Source: a virus. From it: DNA of 46,126 bases. This document shows positions 2,274-45,821 of this stretch, piece after piece. Position 1 is the first letter of the stretch; the number at the start of each line of letters is the position of its first letter. The position numbers and the translations under genes were made by a program. The notes under the pieces are model-generated. The model had not been told where the DNA came from. It worked only from the letters and a program-made list of their open reading frames with translations, and ran no database searches. The stretch spans positions 1 through 46,126 of IMG/VR virus record IMGVR_UViG_3300011445_000032, one strand, 5' to 3'.

Positions 2274-4655
2274 ATGGGACTGCTCCCCACGTGGATGCGG
2301 CGCATGCTGGCAGAGGTCCGGGGGACGTGGGTTGGACCGATCGACGCGAGCTCGCCGGAGATCGCCCGCCTGTTCGCCAGGCCGCCGACATCCACCGGCG
2401 TGGCGGTGTCCGAGCAGACGGCCCTGACGTATTCCGCGGTGTGGGCGGCGGTCTCCTTAATTGCCTCGAACGTGGCGTCATTACCGCTGATTCTCTATAA
2501 ACGGCTGCCCAATGGCGGCAAAGAGCGGCTCATTGGTCATCCGCTGTACCGCCTCCTGCACGATCAACCCAACGCCGAGATGACCTCGATGGTCTTCCGC
2601 GAGACGCTGCAGGCGCATGTGCTGACCTGGGGGAATGGGTACGCCGAGATCGAACGCGACCAGGGCGGCCGACCCGTGGCGCTCTGGCCGCTCACGCCTG
2701 ACCGCGTCCAGCCATTCCGTGAGGAACGGAGTCTCCGGCTGCGGTACCGCGTGCGCAACGCCGCCGGCCTGTCCGATGTGGTCATTGAGGCGCCGGACAT
2801 GCTGCATGTCCCTGGCCTCGGTTACGACGGCACGTGCGGCTACTCCGTCATCGCGAAGGCCCGCGAGTCGATCGGCCTGGGGTTGGCCACCGAACGGTTC
2901 GGCGGCACGTTCTTCGGCCAGGGCTCTACGTTCGGCGGGGTCCTCGAGCATCCGAAGCAGCTCGGGGAGATCGCCCAGAAGAAACTGCGCGCGTCGATCA
3001 ACGAGCGTCATCAAGGCGTCGACCGCGCGCATCGGTTTCTGATCCTCGAAGAAGGGATGCAGTACAAGCGGCTGGGCATCCCGCCGAACGATGCGCAGTT
3101 CCTCGAGACGCGCAAGTTCCAGATCGCGGAGGTGGCCCGCTGGTTCAATATGCCGCCACACAAGCTGCGCGACCTCGAACGCGCGACGTTCAGCAATATC
3201 GAGCACCAGAACATCGAGTGGGTCGTCGATACGCTCCGGAACTGGCTCGTGCGCTGGGAGCAGGAGATCAACCGGAAACTCGTCGCCTCCACGGAACGTA
3301 ACATCCAATTCGCCGAGCACCTGGTCGATGGGTTGCTCCGCGGGGACATCGCGAGCCGGTACGCCGCCTATGCCATCGGCCGCCAGTGGGGCTGGCTCTC
3401 GGCCGATGATGTGCGCGAGAAAGAGAACATGAACCCGTTGCCCGACGGGTCCGGTCAGCAGTACCTCGTGCCGTTGAACATGGTGCCCGCGGATCGCATG
3501 GACGAAGTGATCGACAAGCAAGTCGCCCCGGCGCCGACCCCGCCCGCCCTGCCGCCGCCGCCCCAGGAGGACGACGAGGACGACCCGGCCGTCGACGCCG
3601 AGGAGAAAGAGCGGGCCCTGGCGCGCGTCGAGGATGCGCTCGCCCGGGTGCAGGCGTCGATCCTGACGGAACTGCAGGCGGCCGGGACCGCGCTCAACGC
3701 GCGCGTGGAGGCGCTCCCGGGGCTCATCGTTCCGGAGGTGGTCGCTCCCTCCGCGAAGGCGGAGGCCGCCGCCGCGGCGGTCGCCCTGGCCGTGGCGCAC
3801 GTCGACGAGGCCGTCACCCGCGTCGACATCTCCCTCCGGACAGACCTGCAGGCCGCGGTCACCGCGCAGCAGGCGCACCTGGAGGCCTTGCCGTCCCGCG
3901 TCTCCGAGGCTGTCGAGCCCCACCTCGCGGCGGTGGCGCGAGACGTGGAGGCCCGGGCGTTGACCCTGGCCGCTGTGGAGGCGCGCGCCACGGACGCGGC
4001 TGCGCAGCTCCTCGAGGCCCGGGCGGAGGTCGAGCGGGAGCGCCAGGCGGGGGCCGCGCTCGCCGAAACGGCCCGCCTGACCGCCGAGGCCGAGGCGGCG
4101 TCGCGCGCCGTGGCGGTGGCTGCGCACCAGACCGCTCTGTCGGCGGCGGCGGCCCAGGCGGCCCAGGCCGCGGAGACGGAGCGGTCGCGCCTGGCCGCAG
4201 CGCTCGACGCCCAGCGCGCCACAGAGGCCGCCCGCCTGACCGCCGTCATCGCGGCACACCGGGCGCTGTTCGTCGATGCCGCCGGCCGCCTGCTGCGCAT
4301 CGAAGCCGACCGTGCGCGGCGGGCCCAGGCCACGCCCGAAAAACTGCGCCGCTGGATCGAGACGTTCTATCCCGTGCACGAGGACGTTTGCCGGATGGCG
4401 TTCCTGCCGGCGCTGCGCGCGCACCTGGCGTGGATGCAATCCGACGCCGATCCCGTCCAGATGGCCGCCACGATGGCAACCCAGCACGTCGAGGACTCCC
4501 GGCGGCAATTGACCGTGGTCCTGGACGTCGACGTCGGCACCGTCAATGAATCGTTGGAGACGGTGTTACGCCGCTGGGAAGGGGAACGCGCCGACCAGAT
4601 AGCCGATCGGGTCTTACAGGAGGCGGTGAGCTATGTCCGGACCACTGGCCGGTGA
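2274..4655 (+). CDS. Portal protein with long coiled-coil C-terminal extension
   Basis: Forms the dodecameric DNA entry vertex. Residues 1-415 are a normal HK97-type portal (Phage_portal family): ALTYSAVWAAVSLIASNVAS near the start, RWFNMPPHKLRDLERATFSN in the middle, then a region ending DVREKENMNPLP. After a proline and acidic hinge (about 419-445) comes some 240 residues of alanine-, glutamate- and arginine-rich sequence predicted to be coiled coil, then a folded 100-residue C-terminal domain. At 793 aa it is nearly twice the usual 400-450 aa. ATG 2274 has a GGAG 11-12 bases upstream; TTG 2265 is too close to that site. The 3' end overlaps the protease gene by 23 bases. Confidence 0.93.
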   Translation: MGLLPTWMRRMLAEVRGTWVGPIDASSPEIARLFARPPTSTGVAVSEQTALTYSAVWAAVSLIASNVASLPLILYKRLPNGGKERLIGHPLYRLLHDQPNAEMTSMVFRETLQAHVLTWGNGYAEIERDQGGRPVALWPLTPDRVQPFREERSLRLRYRVRNAAGLSDVVIEAPDMLHVPGLGYDGTCGYSVIAKARESIGLGLATERFGGTFFGQGSTFGGVLEHPKQLGEIAQKKLRASINERHQGVDRAHRFLILEEGMQYKRLGIPPNDAQFLETRKFQIAEVARWFNMPPHKLRDLERATFSNIEHQNIEWVVDTLRNWLVRWEQEINRKLVASTERNIQFAEHLVDGLLRGDIASRYAAYAIGRQWGWLSADDVREKENMNPLPDGSGQQYLVPLNMVPADRMDEVIDKQVAPAPTPPALPPPPQEDDEDDPAVDAEEKERALARVEDALARVQASILTELQAAGTALNARVEALPGLIVPEVVAPSAKAEAAAAAVALAVAHVDEAVTRVDISLRTDLQAAVTAQQAHLEALPSRVSEAVEPHLAAVARDVEARALTLAAVEARATDAAAQLLEARAEVERERQAGAALAETARLTAEAEAASRAVAVAAHQTALSAAAAQAAQAAETERSRLAAALDAQRATEAARLTAVIAAHRALFVDAAGRLLRIEADRARRAQATPEKLRRWIETFYPVHEDVCRMAFLPALRAHLAWMQSDADPVQMAATMATQHVEDSRRQLTVVLDVDVGTVNESLETVLRRWEGERADQIADRVLQEAVSYVRTTGR

Positions 4656-16725: not shown

Positions 16726-18378
16726 ATGGCCAAGTACGTCGTCCCTCCCGGCGAGACGTCGCGCATCTGCGAGGTGTTCATTCTGGACACGTCGGAGACC
16801 GACGGGCGTGGCCTGACGGGGCTCGTGCACAACACCTCTGGGCTGACCTGCTACTACCACCGGAACCGCGCCGCGTCGGCCGTGGCCGTCTCCCTGGTGA
16901 CGATGACGGTCGGCACGTTCACGTCGGGCGGCTTCAAGGAAGTCGACGCGACGAACATGCCGGGCGTCTATCAGGTCTGCCTGCCAGACGCGGTGTACGC
17001 GGACGGATCGCAGAGTGTCGTCGCGTTCCTCAAGGGCGCCGCCAACATGGCGCAGACGCCCTTCGAGATCCAGATCACATCGGTCACCAACGAATCCCCG
17101 TCCGACTTCATCGTCTGGATCGACGACATCAACCGCACCAGCTACGTGCAGTCTGGGCTGATCTACCGGCGCGTCATCAACGACATCGGGACGTGCGACT
17201 TCGACTTCGAGGACATCACCGGCGCTCTCATACCGGAGGCCGACCAGCTCGTCGAGGTCGAGATCGGCGGCGTCATCAAGTGGTCCGGCACGATCGCCCA
17301 CGTCTCCGGTCTGACGTTCCTCGGGCGCGTGACCGGCATCAACTGCCACGTCGTTGCGCAGGACTTCAACCAGGTCCTGCTCCGCACGCTCGTCAATGAC
17401 ATCTTCCCGGCGGACACGCTGAAGGCGCTGCTCGAGGAACTCGTCGGCTCCATCGGCTGGCTCGCTGATTACGGCATCTCTCTCGCCGCAGACCAGGTCG
17501 ACGGTCCAGCGCTCACCGAAATCGTGGCGCCCTGGATGACGGGCGAGGAGCTGCTCCGCTACCTCTCCGAGCTCACGAACTTCGTGCGGCACATCAACTC
17601 GAATCGCGAGCTCGAGATGTGGGACATCGGCACGAAGGATAGCGGCGTCACGCTCTCGATCGACAACGCCACGATCATCGACGCCGAATACGAGATCAGT
17701 CGGTTCGACTATCGCAATGTGCAGTACGTCGTCTACGGCCCGAACGAAGTGCTGACTGTGACGGACACGTGGATCGGGGACGGCAGCATTCAGGAGTTCC
17801 CGCAGCGGTACAGCGTGCAGGCGACGCGGCCGGAGACCGTGAACGTCGATGGCGTCGACTTCCCGGTCGGCATCTTCGGCGTTGACGTCATGGAGTGGAC
17901 CTGGCGCGAGTCCGATCACACGCTCGTCCAGGACGGCACGCCGGTCCCGAACGGGGACGTCATCATTGCCGTCTACACGTCGCTGTTTCCCAACTCGGTC
18001 GTCTTCGACGATCCGACGGAGATCGGCCTGCATGGTCCCTGGCTCAAGGTGGAGTTCGTCGAAAGCATCCTGACCTACGAGGAGGCGCTCGCCTACGCCG
18101 AGAACCTCATCAGGGTGAATCTGCCGCGGCCGCCGCTCCCTCGTATCAGCACGGAGGTGACGACCATCGAGCCCGGGCGACTCGTGATCGCCGACCTGCC
18201 GGAGATCGGGCTCGACGAGGTGCAGTGCTTCGTGCGCGGTATCGAGGTCCGCGTGATTCAGCAGGGCACGCAGGTGTATCGCGAGACGACCCTCGATCTG
18301 ATCGGCGGCGAGGAGCTGCCGGCCAACAGCGTGATCGATATGTGGCGCCGGATCGTTTTTGGAGTTTCGACGCAATGA
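16726..18378 (+). CDS. Baseplate hub-like tail protein with duplicated N-terminal module
   Basis: A 550-aa protein. Residues 1-120 are a paralogue of the 121-aa protein just upstream. From about 125 it reads FIVWIDDINRTSYVQSGLIY, continuing with the beta-domain order of tail hub proteins of the gp27/gpD or ReqiPepy6 Gp37-like kind, with GLTFLGRVTGINCHVVAQDF and a C-terminal ISTEVTTIEPGRLVIADLP. Such proteins form the trimeric ring at the tail end under the tape measure. The protein lacks a visible peptidase motif. The hub role is inferred from order and fold. Confidence 0.62.
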   Translation: MAKYVVPPGETSRICEVFILDTSETDGRGLTGLVHNTSGLTCYYHRNRAASAVAVSLVTMTVGTFTSGGFKEVDATNMPGVYQVCLPDAVYADGSQSVVAFLKGAANMAQTPFEIQITSVTNESPSDFIVWIDDINRTSYVQSGLIYRRVINDIGTCDFDFEDITGALIPEADQLVEVEIGGVIKWSGTIAHVSGLTFLGRVTGINCHVVAQDFNQVLLRTLVNDIFPADTLKALLEELVGSIGWLADYGISLAADQVDGPALTEIVAPWMTGEELLRYLSELTNFVRHINSNRELEMWDIGTKDSGVTLSIDNATIIDAEYEISRFDYRNVQYVVYGPNEVLTVTDTWIGDGSIQEFPQRYSVQATRPETVNVDGVDFPVGIFGVDVMEWTWRESDHTLVQDGTPVPNGDVIIAVYTSLFPNSVVFDDPTEIGLHGPWLKVEFVESILTYEEALAYAENLIRVNLPRPPLPRISTEVTTIEPGRLVIADLPEIGLDEVQCFVRGIEVRVIQQGTQVYRETTLDLIGGEELPANSVIDMWRRIVFGVSTQ

Positions 18379-31806: not shown

Positions 31807-33468
31807 CTAATTGTCCTCATCGACCGGCTGCAAAATACGCTGCTCGCCCTGCCGCTCTGGGGCCTTCGGCGCCTTCTTGAAGGTCGTGCTGGCCTGCACG
31901 GGCGGACGGTCTAGCGTCTTGCCCGTGAGCAAGTCCTCGACCGTGAGGATCTGCAAGCGCGGATGCTTGCCCCACGGCGACGTGTAGAAGCCCGCGCTGG
32001 CCGCTTCCTTCCTCATCGGTCCGGTCGGTTCCTCCAGGCACAGCAGCGCGCCCATCTCTGCCTTCTCTCTATCCAGCACGCCACGAAGATCGCGGAGATG
32101 TGAGACGCTGACGTGACCGGCCTTCACCGAGAGGATGATCTGCTTCGTCTTTGAGCCGGCGCCTTCGTGGAAGTAGATCCGACCGTCGATGCCGTGGTCG
32201 CGGCCCTTCTTTTCATCGACGGGTCGAGCACCGACCAAGCCGAGCGCCCACCACTGGAACTGATACGGATCGTCGGCCGCTAGCTTCACCGCATCCGGTA
32301 GCGACACTGGCTCACCGATGACTTTGTACTCGGCCGCCGTGATGAACGTGTCTGCCAGCCGACTACGAATCAGGCTGATGGCAAGGCTCGTAATGTCGAT
32401 TCCGATCCATCGCCGCTTCAGTTTCTGAGCAGCCGCAATCGTCGTGCCGCAGCCGCAGAACGGATCCAGTACGGTGTCGCCTTCGTTGCTGGACGCGAGG
32501 ATGATGCGCTCAAGTAGTGCCTCCGGCTTTTGCGTCGGGTAGCCAAGACGCTCCCTCGCCGACGTCTGCAGGCGAATATCCGTCCACACGTCGAGGGCTG
32601 GAACCCCCTTGGACTCGTCAAGGTACAGCCTCAACATGGGAGTTCCGCCGGCTTTCTTCGGCCAGAAGACGCGGCCCATCTTGTCCAGAGCTTCAAGCGC
32701 CTCAATCGTGTCGAGATCACCGATGACATCACGGGCGAACCCAGGGACTGCCCAATGCCGACCCTTCGCGGTCGGATCAATTCCACGCCACTGCTTTCCA
32801 GATGAACCGGACCGAACGCCAGGCGCCGTAAGCGTGTTCCGATTGAATCTGCGTCCTGTATCCGGTTCCACATTGTTGAACCACGCGTCCGCAGTCTCCT
32901 GTGGCAGGGGCATATAGGCAGGGTTCCATACGTACGCCTCGCCCTTTGTGTAGAAGAAAATTGTGTCGTGTATCGGCCCAAATCGCTTGGAGCTGCCGTG
33001 CGCCCCAGTCCGCTTCCAGATGATTTCGTTCCGGAAACACTGTGGACCGAAGACGGCATCGAGGAGCATCTTCAGGTAGTGGCTCGCGGTCGGGTCGCAG
33101 TGCAGGTAGATTGATCCGGTCGGATTCAGCACGCGCCGCAGCTCCAAGAGCCGAGGCGCCATCATGGCGAGGTAGGCCATCATGTCGCTGTCGCCGAGGA
33201 GCGTCCGAAACGCCTGCATCGCCTCAGACACCTTGCCGCCCGCCACGATCACCTCGTCGCACGAGCGCGCGGCGGCTTCGTCCCACTTCCACGTATCGCT
33301 GAACGCCTTGATCTGAGACGCTGCTTCCGTCCCATCGTGCTCGGCGAACAGCACGTTGTACGAGGCATTCGAGTTGAAAGGCGGGTCTAGGTAGACGAGA
33401 TCGACGCTGGCGTCGTCGATGTGACGCCGCATCACTTCGAGGTTGTCGCCGTAGAATAGTTGGTTCAT
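31807..33468 (-). CDS. DNA methyltransferase fused to an Mrr-like nuclease domain
   Basis: A 553-aa fusion. Residues 1-380 are a beta-class amino-methyltransferase: motif IV DPPF at 28-31 (as in N6-adenine or N4-cytosine enzymes) precedes motif [16 protein letters not shown] near 333-347. Residues ~400-515 form a restriction-endonuclease-like domain with [11 protein letters not shown] (Asp 428) and [10 protein letters not shown] (Ser 447, Lys 449), followed by conserved [19 protein letters not shown]. In Mrr-type enzymes the motif is Asp then (E/Q)xK; here Ser replaces E/Q, so cleavage is uncertain. It may be a modification enzyme with a regulatory or silent nuclease domain, or a one-gene restriction-modification system. 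Gap to upstream gene: 27 bases. Confidence 0.8.
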
Positions 33469-34370: not shown

Positions 34371-35021
34371 TCAGAATTGAAACGACGCGCTGACCCCGAA
34401 CGAGGCCGGCCCGCTGAAGTCGGTACTGAAGGGCACCGAGAGCCACGGTCGGATGAGGGCGCGTCCGTTCTGGAGGCCGACGCCGATCCCGATCCGCCCG
34501 TAGGTGTCGCTCTGTTCTTGCTCGAAGAACCCACTCAACTCGGTCCGACGATGCGCCACCCCAAGAGACACGTATGGGATGACACCGATCCGCGTGCCGG
34601 GACGCGTCGCCAGGACGCCGGCACTCACACCAGCAGACGTGCTGGACGCGTCGAAATAGGTGCCGGTGTCGAGGATGTTGTCCGGGCCGAGCTCCCAGCC
34701 GACGCTCGCCCGCGGGCAGATGGACACACGCCCCGCCGCGGCCGGGAAGTCGTAGCCGGCGGCGAGGCCGATGTCGATGGTGGTACCGTCCCACGGGTCG
34801 TACTCGCTCTGGCCGACGCTGAACGTCCCGAAGAAGTCGCGTCCTGCTGTGACGAACGCCTCATAGCCGAATTGGTCGGAGGTGCCCCAGATTCCGCCGC
34901 CGACGCGGACATGGCGCTCTTGCAGGGACGGCGCGCCGAGGCACACCTGGGCCTCGGCGGTTGCGGCGGTCCAAACCATCAGTAGAGGAACGGCGACGAC
35001 GAAGGTGCCAAGACGTCTCAC
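34371..35021 (-). CDS. Outer-membrane beta-barrel protein, lysogenic conversion candidate
   Basis: A 216-aa protein with a signal peptide (MRRLGTFVVAVPLLMVWTAA then TAEAQ, cleavage after A-E-A) and alternating beta strands (FGYEAFVTAGRDFFGTFSVG; IDIGLAAGYDFPAAAGRVSI; RIGIGVGLQNGRALIRPWLS) that end in SFQF, the aromatic C-terminal signal for barrel insertion. It starts at GTG 35021, overlapping the repressor stop by GTGA, so it is translationally coupled to the repressor and made in the lysogen. A phage-encoded surface barrel of this kind may change receptors or exclude other phages. Function is inferred. Confidence 0.7.
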   Translation of the reverse strand: MRRLGTFVVAVPLLMVWTAATAEAQVCLGAPSLQERHVRVGGGIWGTSDQFGYEAFVTAGRDFFGTFSVGQSEYDPWDGTTIDIGLAAGYDFPAAAGRVSICPRASVGWELGPDNILDTGTYFDASSTSAGVSAGVLATRPGTRIGVIPYVSLGVAHRRTELSGFFEQEQSDTYGRIGIGVGLQNGRALIRPWLSVPFSTDFSGPASFGVSASFQF

Positions 35022-35713
35022 CGCTGCCTCCGTGACCAGATGATTGGATGCATCGCGCCAATCTCTGACTTTTTCACGAACCGCGATTCATACGCCGGGT
35101 TGGCTGATTCGAGCATCCAGCCGCCAGGCACCTTGCGCGCGATCTTCAGCAACCGCTCGCCGTTCAACAGCATCACGTAGACCTCGTCGCCGTCGCGAGC
35201 CGGTGTGTTCGGCGACACGATGAGCTTCATGCCAGGGCGATAGATAGGCGCCATCGAATCGCCGCGTACCTTGACGCCGTAGGCGCGTGGGTCGGTGACG
35301 TCGTGCGGGCGAGAGATCCGATCCTCGATGTCCGATTTGAGCGTACCGTCCTCCTCCCAGAAGAGACCAGGCTGCGGCGAGGCGTCGCCCTCCGCGATCA
35401 TCGGGATGTCGTCTCGCTTGTACCCGGTCGAGACGTCCGTGAAATCGGGCTCGGCCTCTCCGCGCCCGATGACCCCGGCGGTGTGGGTTCCGTGTCCGGC
35501 GTACTCGGGATCGATGCCGCTCAACAGATCCTCGACGGAGCAAACGAGCGCCTTCGCCGCGCGCAGAACGGTGCCGGTCTCAGGAAGGCCAAAGCGATCC
35601 GATTCCCAATTCGACAGTTGGCCCTGGCCAACGCCCATTTTCTCTGCGAGTTCCTTCTGAGAGAGCCCACGCTCCTCGCGGACGCGCCTGAGGTTCTCGC
35701 CGAACGTCGCCAT
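35018..35713 (-). CDS. CI/LexA-like repressor with S24 peptidase domain
   Basis: Maintains lysogeny by binding operators between it and the cro-like gene. The 231-aa protein has an N-terminal helix-turn-helix (ENLRRVREERGLSQKELAEK MGVGQGQLSNWE, residues 6-37), a linker with candidate autocleavage site Ala-Gly at 79-80 or 72-73, and a C-terminal S24 domain with Ser 153 in VRGDSMAPIYRPGMKL and Lys 190 in GERLLKIARK, the Ser-Lys dyad. RecA-stimulated self-cleavage and induction by DNA damage are expected from the family. The start is ATG 35713; an upstream ATG (35773) is possible but crosses the operators. Confidence 0.93.
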   Translation of the reverse strand: MATFGENLRRVREERGLSQKELAEKMGVGQGQLSNWESDRFGLPETGTVLRAAKALVCSVEDLLSGIDPEYAGHGTHTAGVIGRGEAEPDFTDVSTGYKRDDIPMIAEGDASPQPGLFWEEDGTLKSDIEDRISRPHDVTDPRAYGVKVRGDSMAPIYRPGMKLIVSPNTPARDGDEVYVMLLNGERLLKIARKVPGGWMLESANPAYESRFVKKSEIGAMHPIIWSRRQR

Positions 35714-35715
35714 GT

Positions 35716-35805
35716 TTAGTGAGAGCAACGCTACCGGCGACCGTGAAGTCTTGCAAGCACTAAGTCTTTCCACTACCGTCAGTTAGTGTGAGCGCTAAAT
35801 TAGTG
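35716..35805. promoter_or_regulatory. Operator region with repeated TTAGTG half-sites
   Basis: Five hexamers of the TTAGTG type: TTAGTG at 35716-35721, CACTAA at 35758-35763, TTAGTG at 35783-35788, CGCTAA at 35793-35798 (paired with the previous as an inverted repeat, 4-base spacer), and TTAGTG at 35800-35805 abutting the -35 box. These are candidate repressor/Cro operators. Confidence 0.6.
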
Positions 35806-39789: not shown

Positions 39790-39963
39790 ATGTATCGCCT
39801 GACCATCACGCACGAAGAACAGCAGCCCGCGCCGGACCCGAAGCTTGAGACCGGTAAACGCACGCGTCGCCGGAAGCCCGTCACGCGGACGGCGATGTCC
39901 ATCGAACTGACCGAGGACGAATACAAGGCGGCACGCGTCGCGCTCATCGAGGCGCTGCGATGA
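39790..39963 (+). CDS. Tiny hypothetical protein
   Basis: A 57-aa protein, MYRLTITHEEQQPAPDPKLE onward, ending with SIELTEDEYKAARVALIEAL, an amphipathic helix with a strand before it. It overlaps the next gene by four bases (ATGA at 39960). Function unknown. Confidence 0.45.
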   Translation: MYRLTITHEEQQPAPDPKLETGKRTRRRKPVTRTAMSIELTEDEYKAARVALIEALR

Positions 39964-40394
39964 CGCAGGGCAGGGCAGGGCATATGACACCCGGCCAGAA
40001 TTCCATCGCCAGAGCGATCGATGCGATCGAAGAGGAACGCGCCAACCTCGCCGCGAGGCTCGCGACGGTGGAGCAACTCCTCGTGACGATGCGCGAGGCG
40101 TTCCACCTGCCGGCGCCGGCGACGAAATCCCGCTCGAAGGCCACGACGCCACGGCGCGCGAAGGACGATCCAGCCGACGGCCCGGCCTACGAGTCGAAGC
40201 ATGGCCTCGCGATTCAGACGGCGCTGCAGCCGGGGCCGATGACGCTGAAGGCCCTCGCCGCGGCGATCGGCGCGTCGCCCTACAAAACCAACAAACACGT
40301 CGCGGCGCTCGTCAGCGCGGGCGCGGTAGTGCGAACAGGGGCGACGAGCACCAGTCGGATCGCCCTGGCGCGCGCGCCGAAGGAGGCGCCTTGA
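39960..40394 (+). CDS. Helical protein with C-terminal winged-helix
   Basis: A 144-aa protein. Residues 10-50 form a coiled coil (IARAIDAIEEERANLAARLA), then a basic linker, then a winged-helix domain (GLAIQTALQPGPMTLKALAA AIGASPYKTNKHVAALVSAG). The stop (TGA 40392) is preceded by an AGGAGG and followed by a frame that continues for 43 codons. The domain suggests DNA binding. Confidence 0.55.
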   Translation: MTQGRAGHMTPGQNSIARAIDAIEEERANLAARLATVEQLLVTMREAFHLPAPATKSRSKATTPRRAKDDPADGPAYESKHGLAIQTALQPGPMTLKALAAAIGASPYKTNKHVAALVSAGAVVRTGATSTSRIALARAPKEAP

Positions 40395-41422: not shown

Positions 41423-41667
41423 CGCCAGTCTCGCCGACCGTCCTAGCTCCTGATGCTCGGCTCGTCGTCTTCGCGAAGGACCAGCCGGAGTACCTGCCGT
41501 TGCCGGCACTGTGCTTTCCCGATGGTCGAGTGCTCACCGAATGGAGGCTGACTGAGGAGGAACGCGCTCGGCTCGTCGCGGGCGAAACGTTGCGCCTCTG
41601 GATGTGGACGTTCAATCAACCGCTGCAGCCGATCGCGCTTGAAGTGACATCGGAGGACGCACCGTGA
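41419..41667 (+). CDS. Small hypothetical protein
   Basis: An 82-aa protein with beta strands LVVFAKDQPEYLPLPALCFP and WRLTEEERARLVAGETLRLW. This layout is seen in other small phage proteins of unknown function. It overlaps both neighbours by four bases, including the nuclease gene, so it might be its partner. Confidence 0.45.
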   Translation: MTPVSPTVLAPDARLVVFAKDQPEYLPLPALCFPDGRVLTEWRLTEEERARLVAGETLRLWMWTFNQPLQPIALEVTSEDAP

Positions 41668-42305
41668 CGACCGCCGCGGCGACGCCTCTCCTGACGTTCG
41701 ACGCGCCGACCCACACGTACGCGCTCGACGGCGTCACCGTCCCGAGCGTTACGACGGTGCTCAAGGAGGCCGGCTACATTGACTTCTCGCGCATCCCGTC
41801 CGAGATCCTGGAACGGGCCCGCGACCGCGGCTCCGTCGTGCACCAGGCGCTCCACTACCTCAACGACGGCGACCTCGATCCCGACTCCGTTCGCGACGAT
41901 CTGCGCGGCTATGTCCAGGCAGGCATCGACTTCCGCCGGACCGCCGGCTTCACCGTCTACAGCTGCGAGCTGCGAGTGTGCTCGCCAACCTGGCGCGTCG
42001 CCGGAACGCTCGACCTGCTCGGCCGCTGGGCCGACGACACGCTGACGATCGCCGACTACAAGACGGGCTCGCCGGCCGACGTCGCCGCGGACCTCCAGCT
42101 CGCCGCGTACGCCGAGCTCGTGCGCGAGACCTACCCTGAGCTCGCCGACGAGCCGATTCGCCGGGTGTCGGTGCGCCTGACGAAGGACGGCGCGTTTCAC
42201 GTGGAACCCTACGACGACGACTCTTCGACCGACTGGTCGATCTTCCTCGCCGCGCTGACGACCGTGACCGAGGTCCGGCGCCGCAAGAACCGGAGGTGGG
42301 AGTGA
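41664..42305 (+). CDS. RecB-type PD-(D/E)xK nuclease
   Basis: A 213-aa exonuclease-like protein. Motifs: GSVVHQ (His 60), CELRV (Glu 102), GTLDLLG (Asp 117), IADYKTG (Asp 131, Lys 133) and QLAAYA (Gln 145), which together are the RecB/Cas4-type set. It starts MTTAAATPLLTFDAPTHTYA at GTG 41664. It likely acts with the 367-aa protein as a recombination pair, processing DNA ends. There is no Cas4 iron-sulphur cysteine cluster. Confidence 0.85.
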   Translation: MTTAAATPLLTFDAPTHTYALDGVTVPSVTTVLKEAGYIDFSRIPSEILERARDRGSVVHQALHYLNDGDLDPDSVRDDLRGYVQAGIDFRRTAGFTVYSCELRVCSPTWRVAGTLDLLGRWADDTLTIADYKTGSPADVAADLQLAAYAELVRETYPELADEPIRRVSVRLTKDGAFHVEPYDDDSSTDWSIFLAALTTVTEVRRRKNRRWE

Positions 42306-42983: not shown

Positions 42984-43784
42984 ATGCCCTGGGCTCGGCT
43001 CGACGACAACTTCCCGTACCACCCGAAGACGCTGCGGGCGATCGGTCTCGTCAAAGGCCGGGAGCGCCTGCAGCGCGTGTTAGGCCAATACGTCGCGGGT
43101 CTGTTGTATTGCAACAAGTACCTGACCGACGGGTTCATCCCCTCCGATGAAGTCACACTCATGCAAGGGGATGCGCTCGCCGAGACCCTCGTCCAGGTCG
43201 GGCTCTGGGAGCCTGTGGACGGCGGGTTCCAGATCCACGACTTCCACCACCACAACGACTCAGCCGACGACGTGAAGGCGCGTCGCGACGCCGATCGGGA
43301 GCGTAAACGGCTCGCCAGAGGCGGTGTCTCGTCCGACCGCCGTCCGACCGCCGTCCAGCCGCCGTCCAACCGGACGGCGAGCGGACAGACGCCGGACACT
43401 CGCCCGCGCGTAGGCGCGCCCGTAGGCCCGCGCGCGGGCACGCCCGCAGGCGTCCGTACCGTACCTGTACCAGGACTGAAGTCCAAAGATAAAAGCACCG
43501 CCTTCGGCGGACCGCGAGCTATCGGGCCTGTGAAAACCCTCGATCCGGCCGTGGACGCCGACCAGGCCTACCAGACGCGGATGGCCGAGGCGGAGGCGAA
43601 CTATAAGGTGATCCTCCGACTCGCGCACGAGGTGATCGGCTTCTTCGGCGTCGAGCCCGAGGCCGACATCACGGAAGCCATCAAGGAGCGCTGCGCCCAG
43701 GCGCGTATCACCTACAACAGCCGAGTGGTTCAGAAGGCCTACGACGCCGCGAAGCACTCGCGAGCAAAAGAGCACCTCGCATGA
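42984..43784 (+). CDS. Replication initiation-like protein carrying phased repeats in its DNA
   Basis: A 266-aa protein. Residues 1-110 form a winged-helix (PWARLDDNFPYHPKTLRAIG then LQRVLGQYVAGLLYCNKYLT), like the N-terminal domains of phage replisome organisers. Residues ~115-170 are a serine, proline and arginine linker. The C-terminal part is helical (VILRLAHEVIGFFGVEPEAD; KERCAQARITYNSRVVQKAY). The linker DNA holds the iteron array below, just as lambda ori lies within gene O. Start ATG 42984 after GGGGGGAC. Confidence 0.6.
   Translation: MPWARLDDNFPYHPKTLRAIGLVKGRERLQRVLGQYVAGLLYCNKYLTDGFIPSDEVTLMQGDALAETLVQVGLWEPVDGGFQIHDFHHHNDSADDVKARRDADRERKRLARGGVSSDRRPTAVQPPSNRTASGQTPDTRPRVGAPVGPRAGTPAGVRTVPVPGLKSKDKSTAFGGPRAIGPVKTLDPAVDADQAYQTRMAEAEANYKVILRLAHEVIGFFGVEPEADITEAIKERCAQARITYNSRVVQKAYDAAKHSRAKEHLA
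43331..43495. other. Candidate replication origin: helically phased iterons inside the replication gene
   Basis: GTCC at 43331, 43342, 43353 and 43364, exactly 11 bases apart, within 9-mers CCGCCGTCC (43337, 43348, 43359), then inverted GGAC at 43372, 43383 and 43394, also 11 apart. Next are CGTAGGC (43409, 43421), GTACC (43456, 43461, 43467), a GGACT-GA-AGTCC palindrome (43473-43484) and an A-rich stretch (43485-43495). An 11-base period is not a codon period, so it is not a protein repeat. Confidence 0.6.
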
Positions 43785-45629: not shown

Positions 45630-45821
45630 ATGGCCGACGAGCGCGACCACCTGCTCACCGTGCGTCAGGTCGCTGAACGCTGGAACACCGACGCGTCGAC
45701 CATTCGGCGGTACATCCGGAATGGCGTGCTCCACGTGGTGCGCGTCGGCCCGAGTAAGCTCCTGCGCATCCGCCTCAGCACGGTCCGCGAACAGGAAACG
45801 AGCGTAGGTAATCCCGGATAA
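45630..45821 (+). CDS. Small HTH (excisionase/MerR-like) protein
   Basis: A 63-aa protein, LLTVRQVAERWNTDASTIRR then YIRNGVLHVVRVGPSKLLRI, the HTH_17-type fold of excisionase and DNA-binding helper proteins. It may control late genes or excision. A 93-base gap with no recognised feature follows. Confidence 0.7.
   Translation: MADERDHLLTVRQVAERWNTDASTIRRYIRNGVLHVVRVGPSKLLRIRLSTVREQETSVGNPG

Follow-up and report, generated by a model that had tools for sequence, protein, structure and literature searches.

The stretch of DNA analysed here, referred to as the window, is virus record G000 with its 46126 bases. This study concerns an array of short, regularly spaced repeats that lies within a putative replication initiator gene, where it occupies codons 116-138, starting from nucleotide 348 (Table 1). 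The best-matching family of the encoded protein, phrog_2447, carries the label 'replication initiation protein', PHROG labels being annotations and not assays. No Pfam family match was obtained for the protein, and its family is without a Pfam or NCBIfam model. The N-terminal domain was predicted by AlphaFold to adopt an H-H-E-H-H-E-E-H topology over residues 14-113, with predicted local distance difference test (pLDDT) scores mostly of 90-96 in blocks of 10 residues. This topology is that of a winged helix, a fold assignment whose support is predictive. The domain is 72% identical to that of the close relative L001 and 33-46% identical to those of other relatives. When viral models were searched with Foldseek, phage helix-turn-helix (HTH) proteins were among the best matches, followed more weakly by replisome organizer and Lin1244-type N-terminal domains; nothing significant was found in the PDB by Foldseek or by a profile search. 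The array DNA encodes a linker that is predicted to be disordered (pLDDT below 50 through most of residues 121-179). The C-terminal domain gave no PHROG match when searched on its own.

Table 1. Features of the initiator locus and of a neighbouring recombination gene, in window coordinates.
Feature	Position	Strand	Basis
PD-(D/E)XK exonuclease, neighbouring recombination gene	41664..42305	+	PF12705 E 4.9e-14; phrog_298 3.6e-26
Replication initiator gene (putative), 266 amino acids	42984..43784	+	phrog_2447 E 3.5e-29, residues 1-169; phrog_3926 7.7e-20
N-terminal winged-helix domain (predicted), residues 1-115, proposed iteron binder	42984..43328	+	AlphaFold topology; identity to relatives
Four GTCC half-sites in 11-bp steps: 43331, 43342, 43353, 43364	43331..43367	+	sequence reading, repeat scan, codon nulls
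Central convergent pair GTCC-N4-GGAC	43364..43375	.	sole occurrence in window; array centre
Three inverted GGAC half-sites in 11-bp steps: 43372, 43383, 43394	43372..43397	-	sequence reading, codon nulls
G+C-rich block, alternating CG and palindrome, 12-bp period	43402..43451	.	sequence reading, repeat scan
Micro-repeat TCCGTACCGTACCTGTACC, unit of about 5 nt	43453..43471	+	repeat scan; CGTACC in same order in GTCC-type relatives
A-rich stretch, candidate melting site	43475..43494	+	70% A+T; about 0.1% of genome 20-mers reach that
C-terminal four-helix domain (predicted), residues 188-265, proposed helicase or loader contact	43545..43781	+	AlphaFold helices, mostly high confidence; conserved in L001

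The array reads GTCC(11)GTCC(11)GTCC(11)GTCC(8)GGAC(11)GGAC(11)GGAC, then alternating CG, then CGTACCGTACC, with steps in base pairs (bp) given in brackets. A first-pass annotation had listed these half-sites with a strict 11-bp spacing, together with three perfect copies of a 9-mer, and all of the positions hold. The 9-mer, CCGCCGTCC, starts at 43337, 43348 and 43359 and is the only one in 46 kb with three copies at constant spacing; none was seen in 20 dinucleotide shuffles. At 43330-43372, Tandem Repeats Finder reported 3.9 copies of an 11-bp unit. Among 4-mers, only GTCC and the overlapping CGTC have four copies at a constant spacing not divisible by 3, and in each case these copies lie in the array. 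Because of its inverted repeats, the array forms a stable predicted single-strand fold (z -3.75). A second GTCC array was not seen in the window.

The same annotation had argued that an 11-bp period cannot come from the protein and that selection acts on the DNA. This was borne out by protein-preserving nulls, in which synonymous codons were either permuted or redrawn from the codon usage of the phage. Five same-strand GTCC or GGAC pairs at 11 bp were observed against 0.2-0.4 expected, and no more than 1 in 2000 synonymous shuffles reached five. When any 4-mer was allowed, at all spacings from 7 to 24 except multiples of 3, the observed value of 5 compared with at most 4 in 2 x 1000 synonymous shuffles. 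Since the nulls were exceeded with the protein held constant, the constraint on the array acts on the DNA, and the phasing does not follow from the protein. The unusual feature of the array is its phasing, not its density: GTCC and GGAC occur 7 times in 70 bp at the array and 6 times in 70 bp at 17898, and unphased density was dropped as a signal because it was not clean. When single words were scanned under a Poisson model, with micro-repeats masked, the array of the window did not rank first in its own locus (CCGTCC x4 scores 4.9 vs 5.1 elsewhere), because its half-sites are mixed and the score of each single word is lowered. For the window, the tests of phasing and of synonymous codons are thus the right ones, rather than the single-word scan.

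Downstream of the array, a palindrome and an A-rich stretch had both been noted earlier, and both are present: the palindrome GCCCGCGCGCGGGC lies at 43426-43439 within the G+C-rich block, and the A-rich stretch follows the micro-repeat. The G+C-rich block may reflect protein-level repetition, since a period of 12 bp amounts to four whole codons.

The array has also been found in close relatives. L001 shares both terminal domains of the protein with the window; its linker protein is unalignable, and its linker DNA contains five perfect GTCC-N4-GGAC dyads and many neighbouring half-sites 11 bp apart. In L004, its identical copy L006, L038, L039 and L040, the gene stops at codon 119-120, just past the winged helix, a domain in which the last three are about 71-72% identical to L004. 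The non-coding DNA after the gene in these relatives reads GTCC(11)GTCC(8)GGAC or GTCC(11)GTCC(11)GTCC(8)GGAT, then alternating CG, then CGTACC. All GTCC-type relatives (L001, L004, L038, L039, L040) retain GTCC-N4-GGAC or GGAT, have alternating-CG stretches between the iterons and CGTACC, and preserve the order of iterons and CGTACC seen in the window. As the array is kept in the window, where it is coding, and in the L004-type relatives, where it is non-coding, the element exists with and without a coding role. The presence of one element in both settings is the strongest single piece of evidence. The conservation of spacing in related phages, which had been put forward as a check, was upheld for the closest relatives, which keep the half-site and the 11-bp step; distant relatives change both and keep only the position.

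This position was surveyed in 39 loci, comprising the window, viral contigs and 25 annotated phages of Mycobacterium, Gordonia, Microbacterium, Arthrobacter, Propionibacterium and Streptomyces (L024/L062, L022/L025 and L038/L040 are near-duplicates). The strongest short repeated word on either strand, with micro-repeats masked, clusters at +280 to +620 from the start codon in 24 of the 39 loci, against 3.3 expected from position alone. By eye, the half-sites vary among relatives and include GTCAC, GTTC, GTCCC, GTCGA, GTTAC, ATGC, TTCC and others. A tandem micro-repeat with a unit of 4-6 nt was found at +350 to +620 in 27 of 36 loci, compared with 0.03 per 270 bp elsewhere; where the scans called both elements, the centre of the iteron cluster lies upstream of its start. 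Its commonest unit is CCCGA; CCCGT, CCCGTA, CCCAA, CCCTT and ACGT also occur, and the coding strand is rich in C in most of them. In 16 of 36 loci, the non-coding strand has a canonical four-tract G-quadruplex motif, which is seen elsewhere at 0.02 per 290 bp and is absent from the window's own locus. Several of the annotated phage records label the initiator gene as a replication initiation protein or as RepA-like. In some annotated relatives, the next gene is given as a helicase loader (MenE), as 'loader and inhibitor of phage' (prophiT36-2a) or as a DnaB-like helicase or helicase (TZGordon, Schmidt). A profile scan of genomes (alignment A4) returned one match, the Streptacidiphilus contig L035, which is probably the same sequence as the viral contig L008/L029 because the match coordinates and identity coincide.

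Other features of these relatives were recorded separately. The G-quadruplex motifs, for example those of L054, L058 and L059, lie at +330 to +620 of the initiator gene, nearly always on the same strand, and are formed by (CCCGA)n and similar repeats. A very large ATGGCAAACG-type array in the linker coding region of L013 (about 3325-3520; repeat z-score 45) is the longest iteron-like array seen. In L017, L019, L021, L051, L057, L061 and L064, the initiator gene ends past the winged helix, with the repeats in the non-coding DNA between it and the next gene. In L051 and L061, that next gene matches phrog_16038, a family of unknown function, and encodes a candidate partner protein. In L001, an (AGGC)12 microsatellite lies at about 2684-2731, some 2.3 kb upstream of the initiator gene.

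Taken together, these observations suggest that the array is the initiator-binding part of a phage replication origin located inside the initiator gene, a reading to which we give a probability of about 0.82. The first-pass annotation had proposed such an origin within a replication gene, with the N-terminal winged helix of the same protein as the binder. The proposal has gained support from the PHROG match of the gene and the predicted topology of its N-terminal domain, from the retention of the array where linker coding or linker similarity is lost, and from the iteron-like repeats, with a micro-repeat behind them, at the same position in most of the 39 loci. We infer three steps: binding, opening and helicase loading. 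The winged-helix domain would bind the GTCC half-sites, with a dimer on the convergent GTCC-N4-GGAC. The flanking sites, phased at 11 bp, would seat more subunits along a single side of the DNA to form a nucleoprotein core. The micro-repeat and the A-rich stretch (43453-43494) would then open. The C-terminal helical domain, flexibly tethered through the disordered linker that the array encodes, would recruit the replicative helicase; a host helicase is proposed because no phage DnaB was found among the open reading frames searched. The micro-repeat is suggested as a single-strand binding element by analogy with the DnaA-trios and the DnaD recognition element of B. subtilis oriC (PMC10201434).

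Lambda and SPP1 are the classical cases of an origin inside an initiator gene and serve as functional precedents for the window. In ori-lambda of the lambdoid phages (lambda and Stx phages; PMC7466680), the origin lies inside the initiator gene O, as is proposed for the window; its iterons are inverted repeats, and an A-rich region comes directly behind them. In lambda the iterons begin at nucleotide 349 of O, compared with nucleotide 348 for the array of the window. The two differ in that lambda has annotated 18-bp iterons 20-24 bp apart, whereas the window has 4-bp half-sites 11 bp apart with an inversion in the middle of the array, and in that the array can also be non-coding in the family of the window. 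No relationship between the initiator and lambda O was detected by hhalign (probability 0.1%), and the protein is not assigned to the lambda O family. The likeness to lambda that had been drawn at first pass is thus one of layout and not of homology. The best reading of the locus would be a lambda-like origin layout in an initiator family not detectably related to lambda O. The Bacillus phage SPP1 carries oriL inside gene 38, which encodes the replisome organizer gp38, and resembles the window in layout, with direct repeats and an A+T-rich unwinding element in the gene of the origin-binding protein and with the helicase loader and helicase downstream (PMC6316719); it differs in having a second origin, oriR. 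The actinophage initiators of PHROG 2447, 3926 and 9474 (for example TZGordon gp54, Malithi gp62 and Taheera gp45) have a homologous winged-helix N-terminal domain, with repeats and a micro-repeat in the same place. They differ from the window in their half-sites (GTCAC, GTTC, GTCGA, ATGC and others), in their spacings and in their micro-repeats, which are clear, as with (CCCGA)n, in contrast to the weak (CCGTA)n of the window. The RepA-type mycobacterial prophages Miko, Rachaly and Jeeves are similar by description in having a phage-coded HTH initiator; Wetzel and colleagues suspected an origin upstream of or within repA and reported no repeated motifs (PMC7157519).

Several points weigh against an origin at the array. 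The A-rich stretch is short (20 bp), and very G+C-rich DNA separates it from the array. The micro-repeat of the window is weak, with a score of 7 that ranks third in 6 kb. DnaB or a recognised loader was not found among the open reading frames (ORFs) searched in the window. The top word cluster lies elsewhere in 15 of the 39 loci, and visual inspection recognised no iteron in L052 or L060. GC skew is weakly informative and was not used as evidence; it reaches its cumulative minimum close to the contig ends, at a distance of about 3 kb from the array.

The array could alternatively be an operator through which the winged-helix protein or another regulator controls transcription of its own or downstream genes, with replication starting elsewhere. 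Phased half-sites and dyads also fit regulators, and the phage has both a CI-like repressor gene (35018-35770) and genes for small HTH proteins (45630-45818 and 39960-40391). However, the array lies after, not before, the would-be binding domain, mid-gene or in the gap behind it, in relatives from several phage genera. The convergent pair is found nowhere else in the window, a micro-repeat comes next, and the family is labelled replication initiation. An operator in place of an origin is thus considered unlikely; the two roles are not exclusive, as initiators may autoregulate too. It is still less probable that a partition (parS-like) site or another maintenance or packaging site lies in the initiator gene by chance. 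Phage parS sites are short direct-repeat arrays, with eight 8-bp copies in RedRock, and the parS locus lies just downstream of repA in Miko and Rachaly (PMC7157519). Against this, ParA or ParB was not found among the ORFs searched in the window, the array sequences vary between relatives yet stay linked to the winged-helix gene, and the terminase gene (541-2268) is far from the array within the contig. The least probable explanation is that the repeats are a functionless by-product of slippage, which can make short tandem repeats, or of coding for a G+C-rich, low-complexity, disordered linker. In its favour, the 12-bp block next to the array could be a protein repeat. Against it, a step of 11 bp is not a whole number of codons, the codon nulls were exceeded, the same half-site and spacing recur on both strands and in inverted order in relatives where the stretch is non-coding, and the concentration of word clusters and micro-repeats holds across the family.

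Beyond the window, we tentatively propose, at slightly less than even odds, that this family of winged-helix initiators defines a two-part origin rule in many phages of Actinobacteria and in their uncultured relatives. Dyad iterons with variable half-sites would be followed by a micro-repeat of 4-6 nt, C-rich on the coding strand, that acts as a strand-specific single-strand element, and the whole would be tethered to the end of the winged helix while moving freely between coding linker and non-coding gap. The micro-repeat would then be a candidate second origin element with a role comparable to that of the DnaA-trios used by single-strand initiators. With such a rule, the origin could be predicted in the 179 phage records with a detectable homologue by inspecting the winged-helix gene from +280 to +620. 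This would yield plasmid replicons for actinobacteria as well as a large natural set of recognition domains paired with their half-sites. In the open-licence literature searched, no description of iterons was found for the initiator family of the window, and no mapped start point was found for the dozens of other phages that share the layout of docking sites and micro-repeat.

The phage genome has a G+C content of 67%. It contains genes for a terminase, a portal, a major head protein, a tape measure, a CI-like repressor and a DNA methyltransferase, and from this gene content it looks like a temperate tailed phage. The initiator gene is flanked by exonuclease-family genes upstream and by a RuvC-like resolvase match downstream. 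The methyltransferase, of the N6/N4 type (31807-33468, minus strand), has a C-terminal stretch that resembles Mrr/NA-iREase1 restriction nuclease domains. A micro-repeat of period 5 (GCAGG, 3.6 copies) lies at 39965-39982, and this site and the candidate origin array are the only places in the window where 8-mers recur three times at constant spacing.
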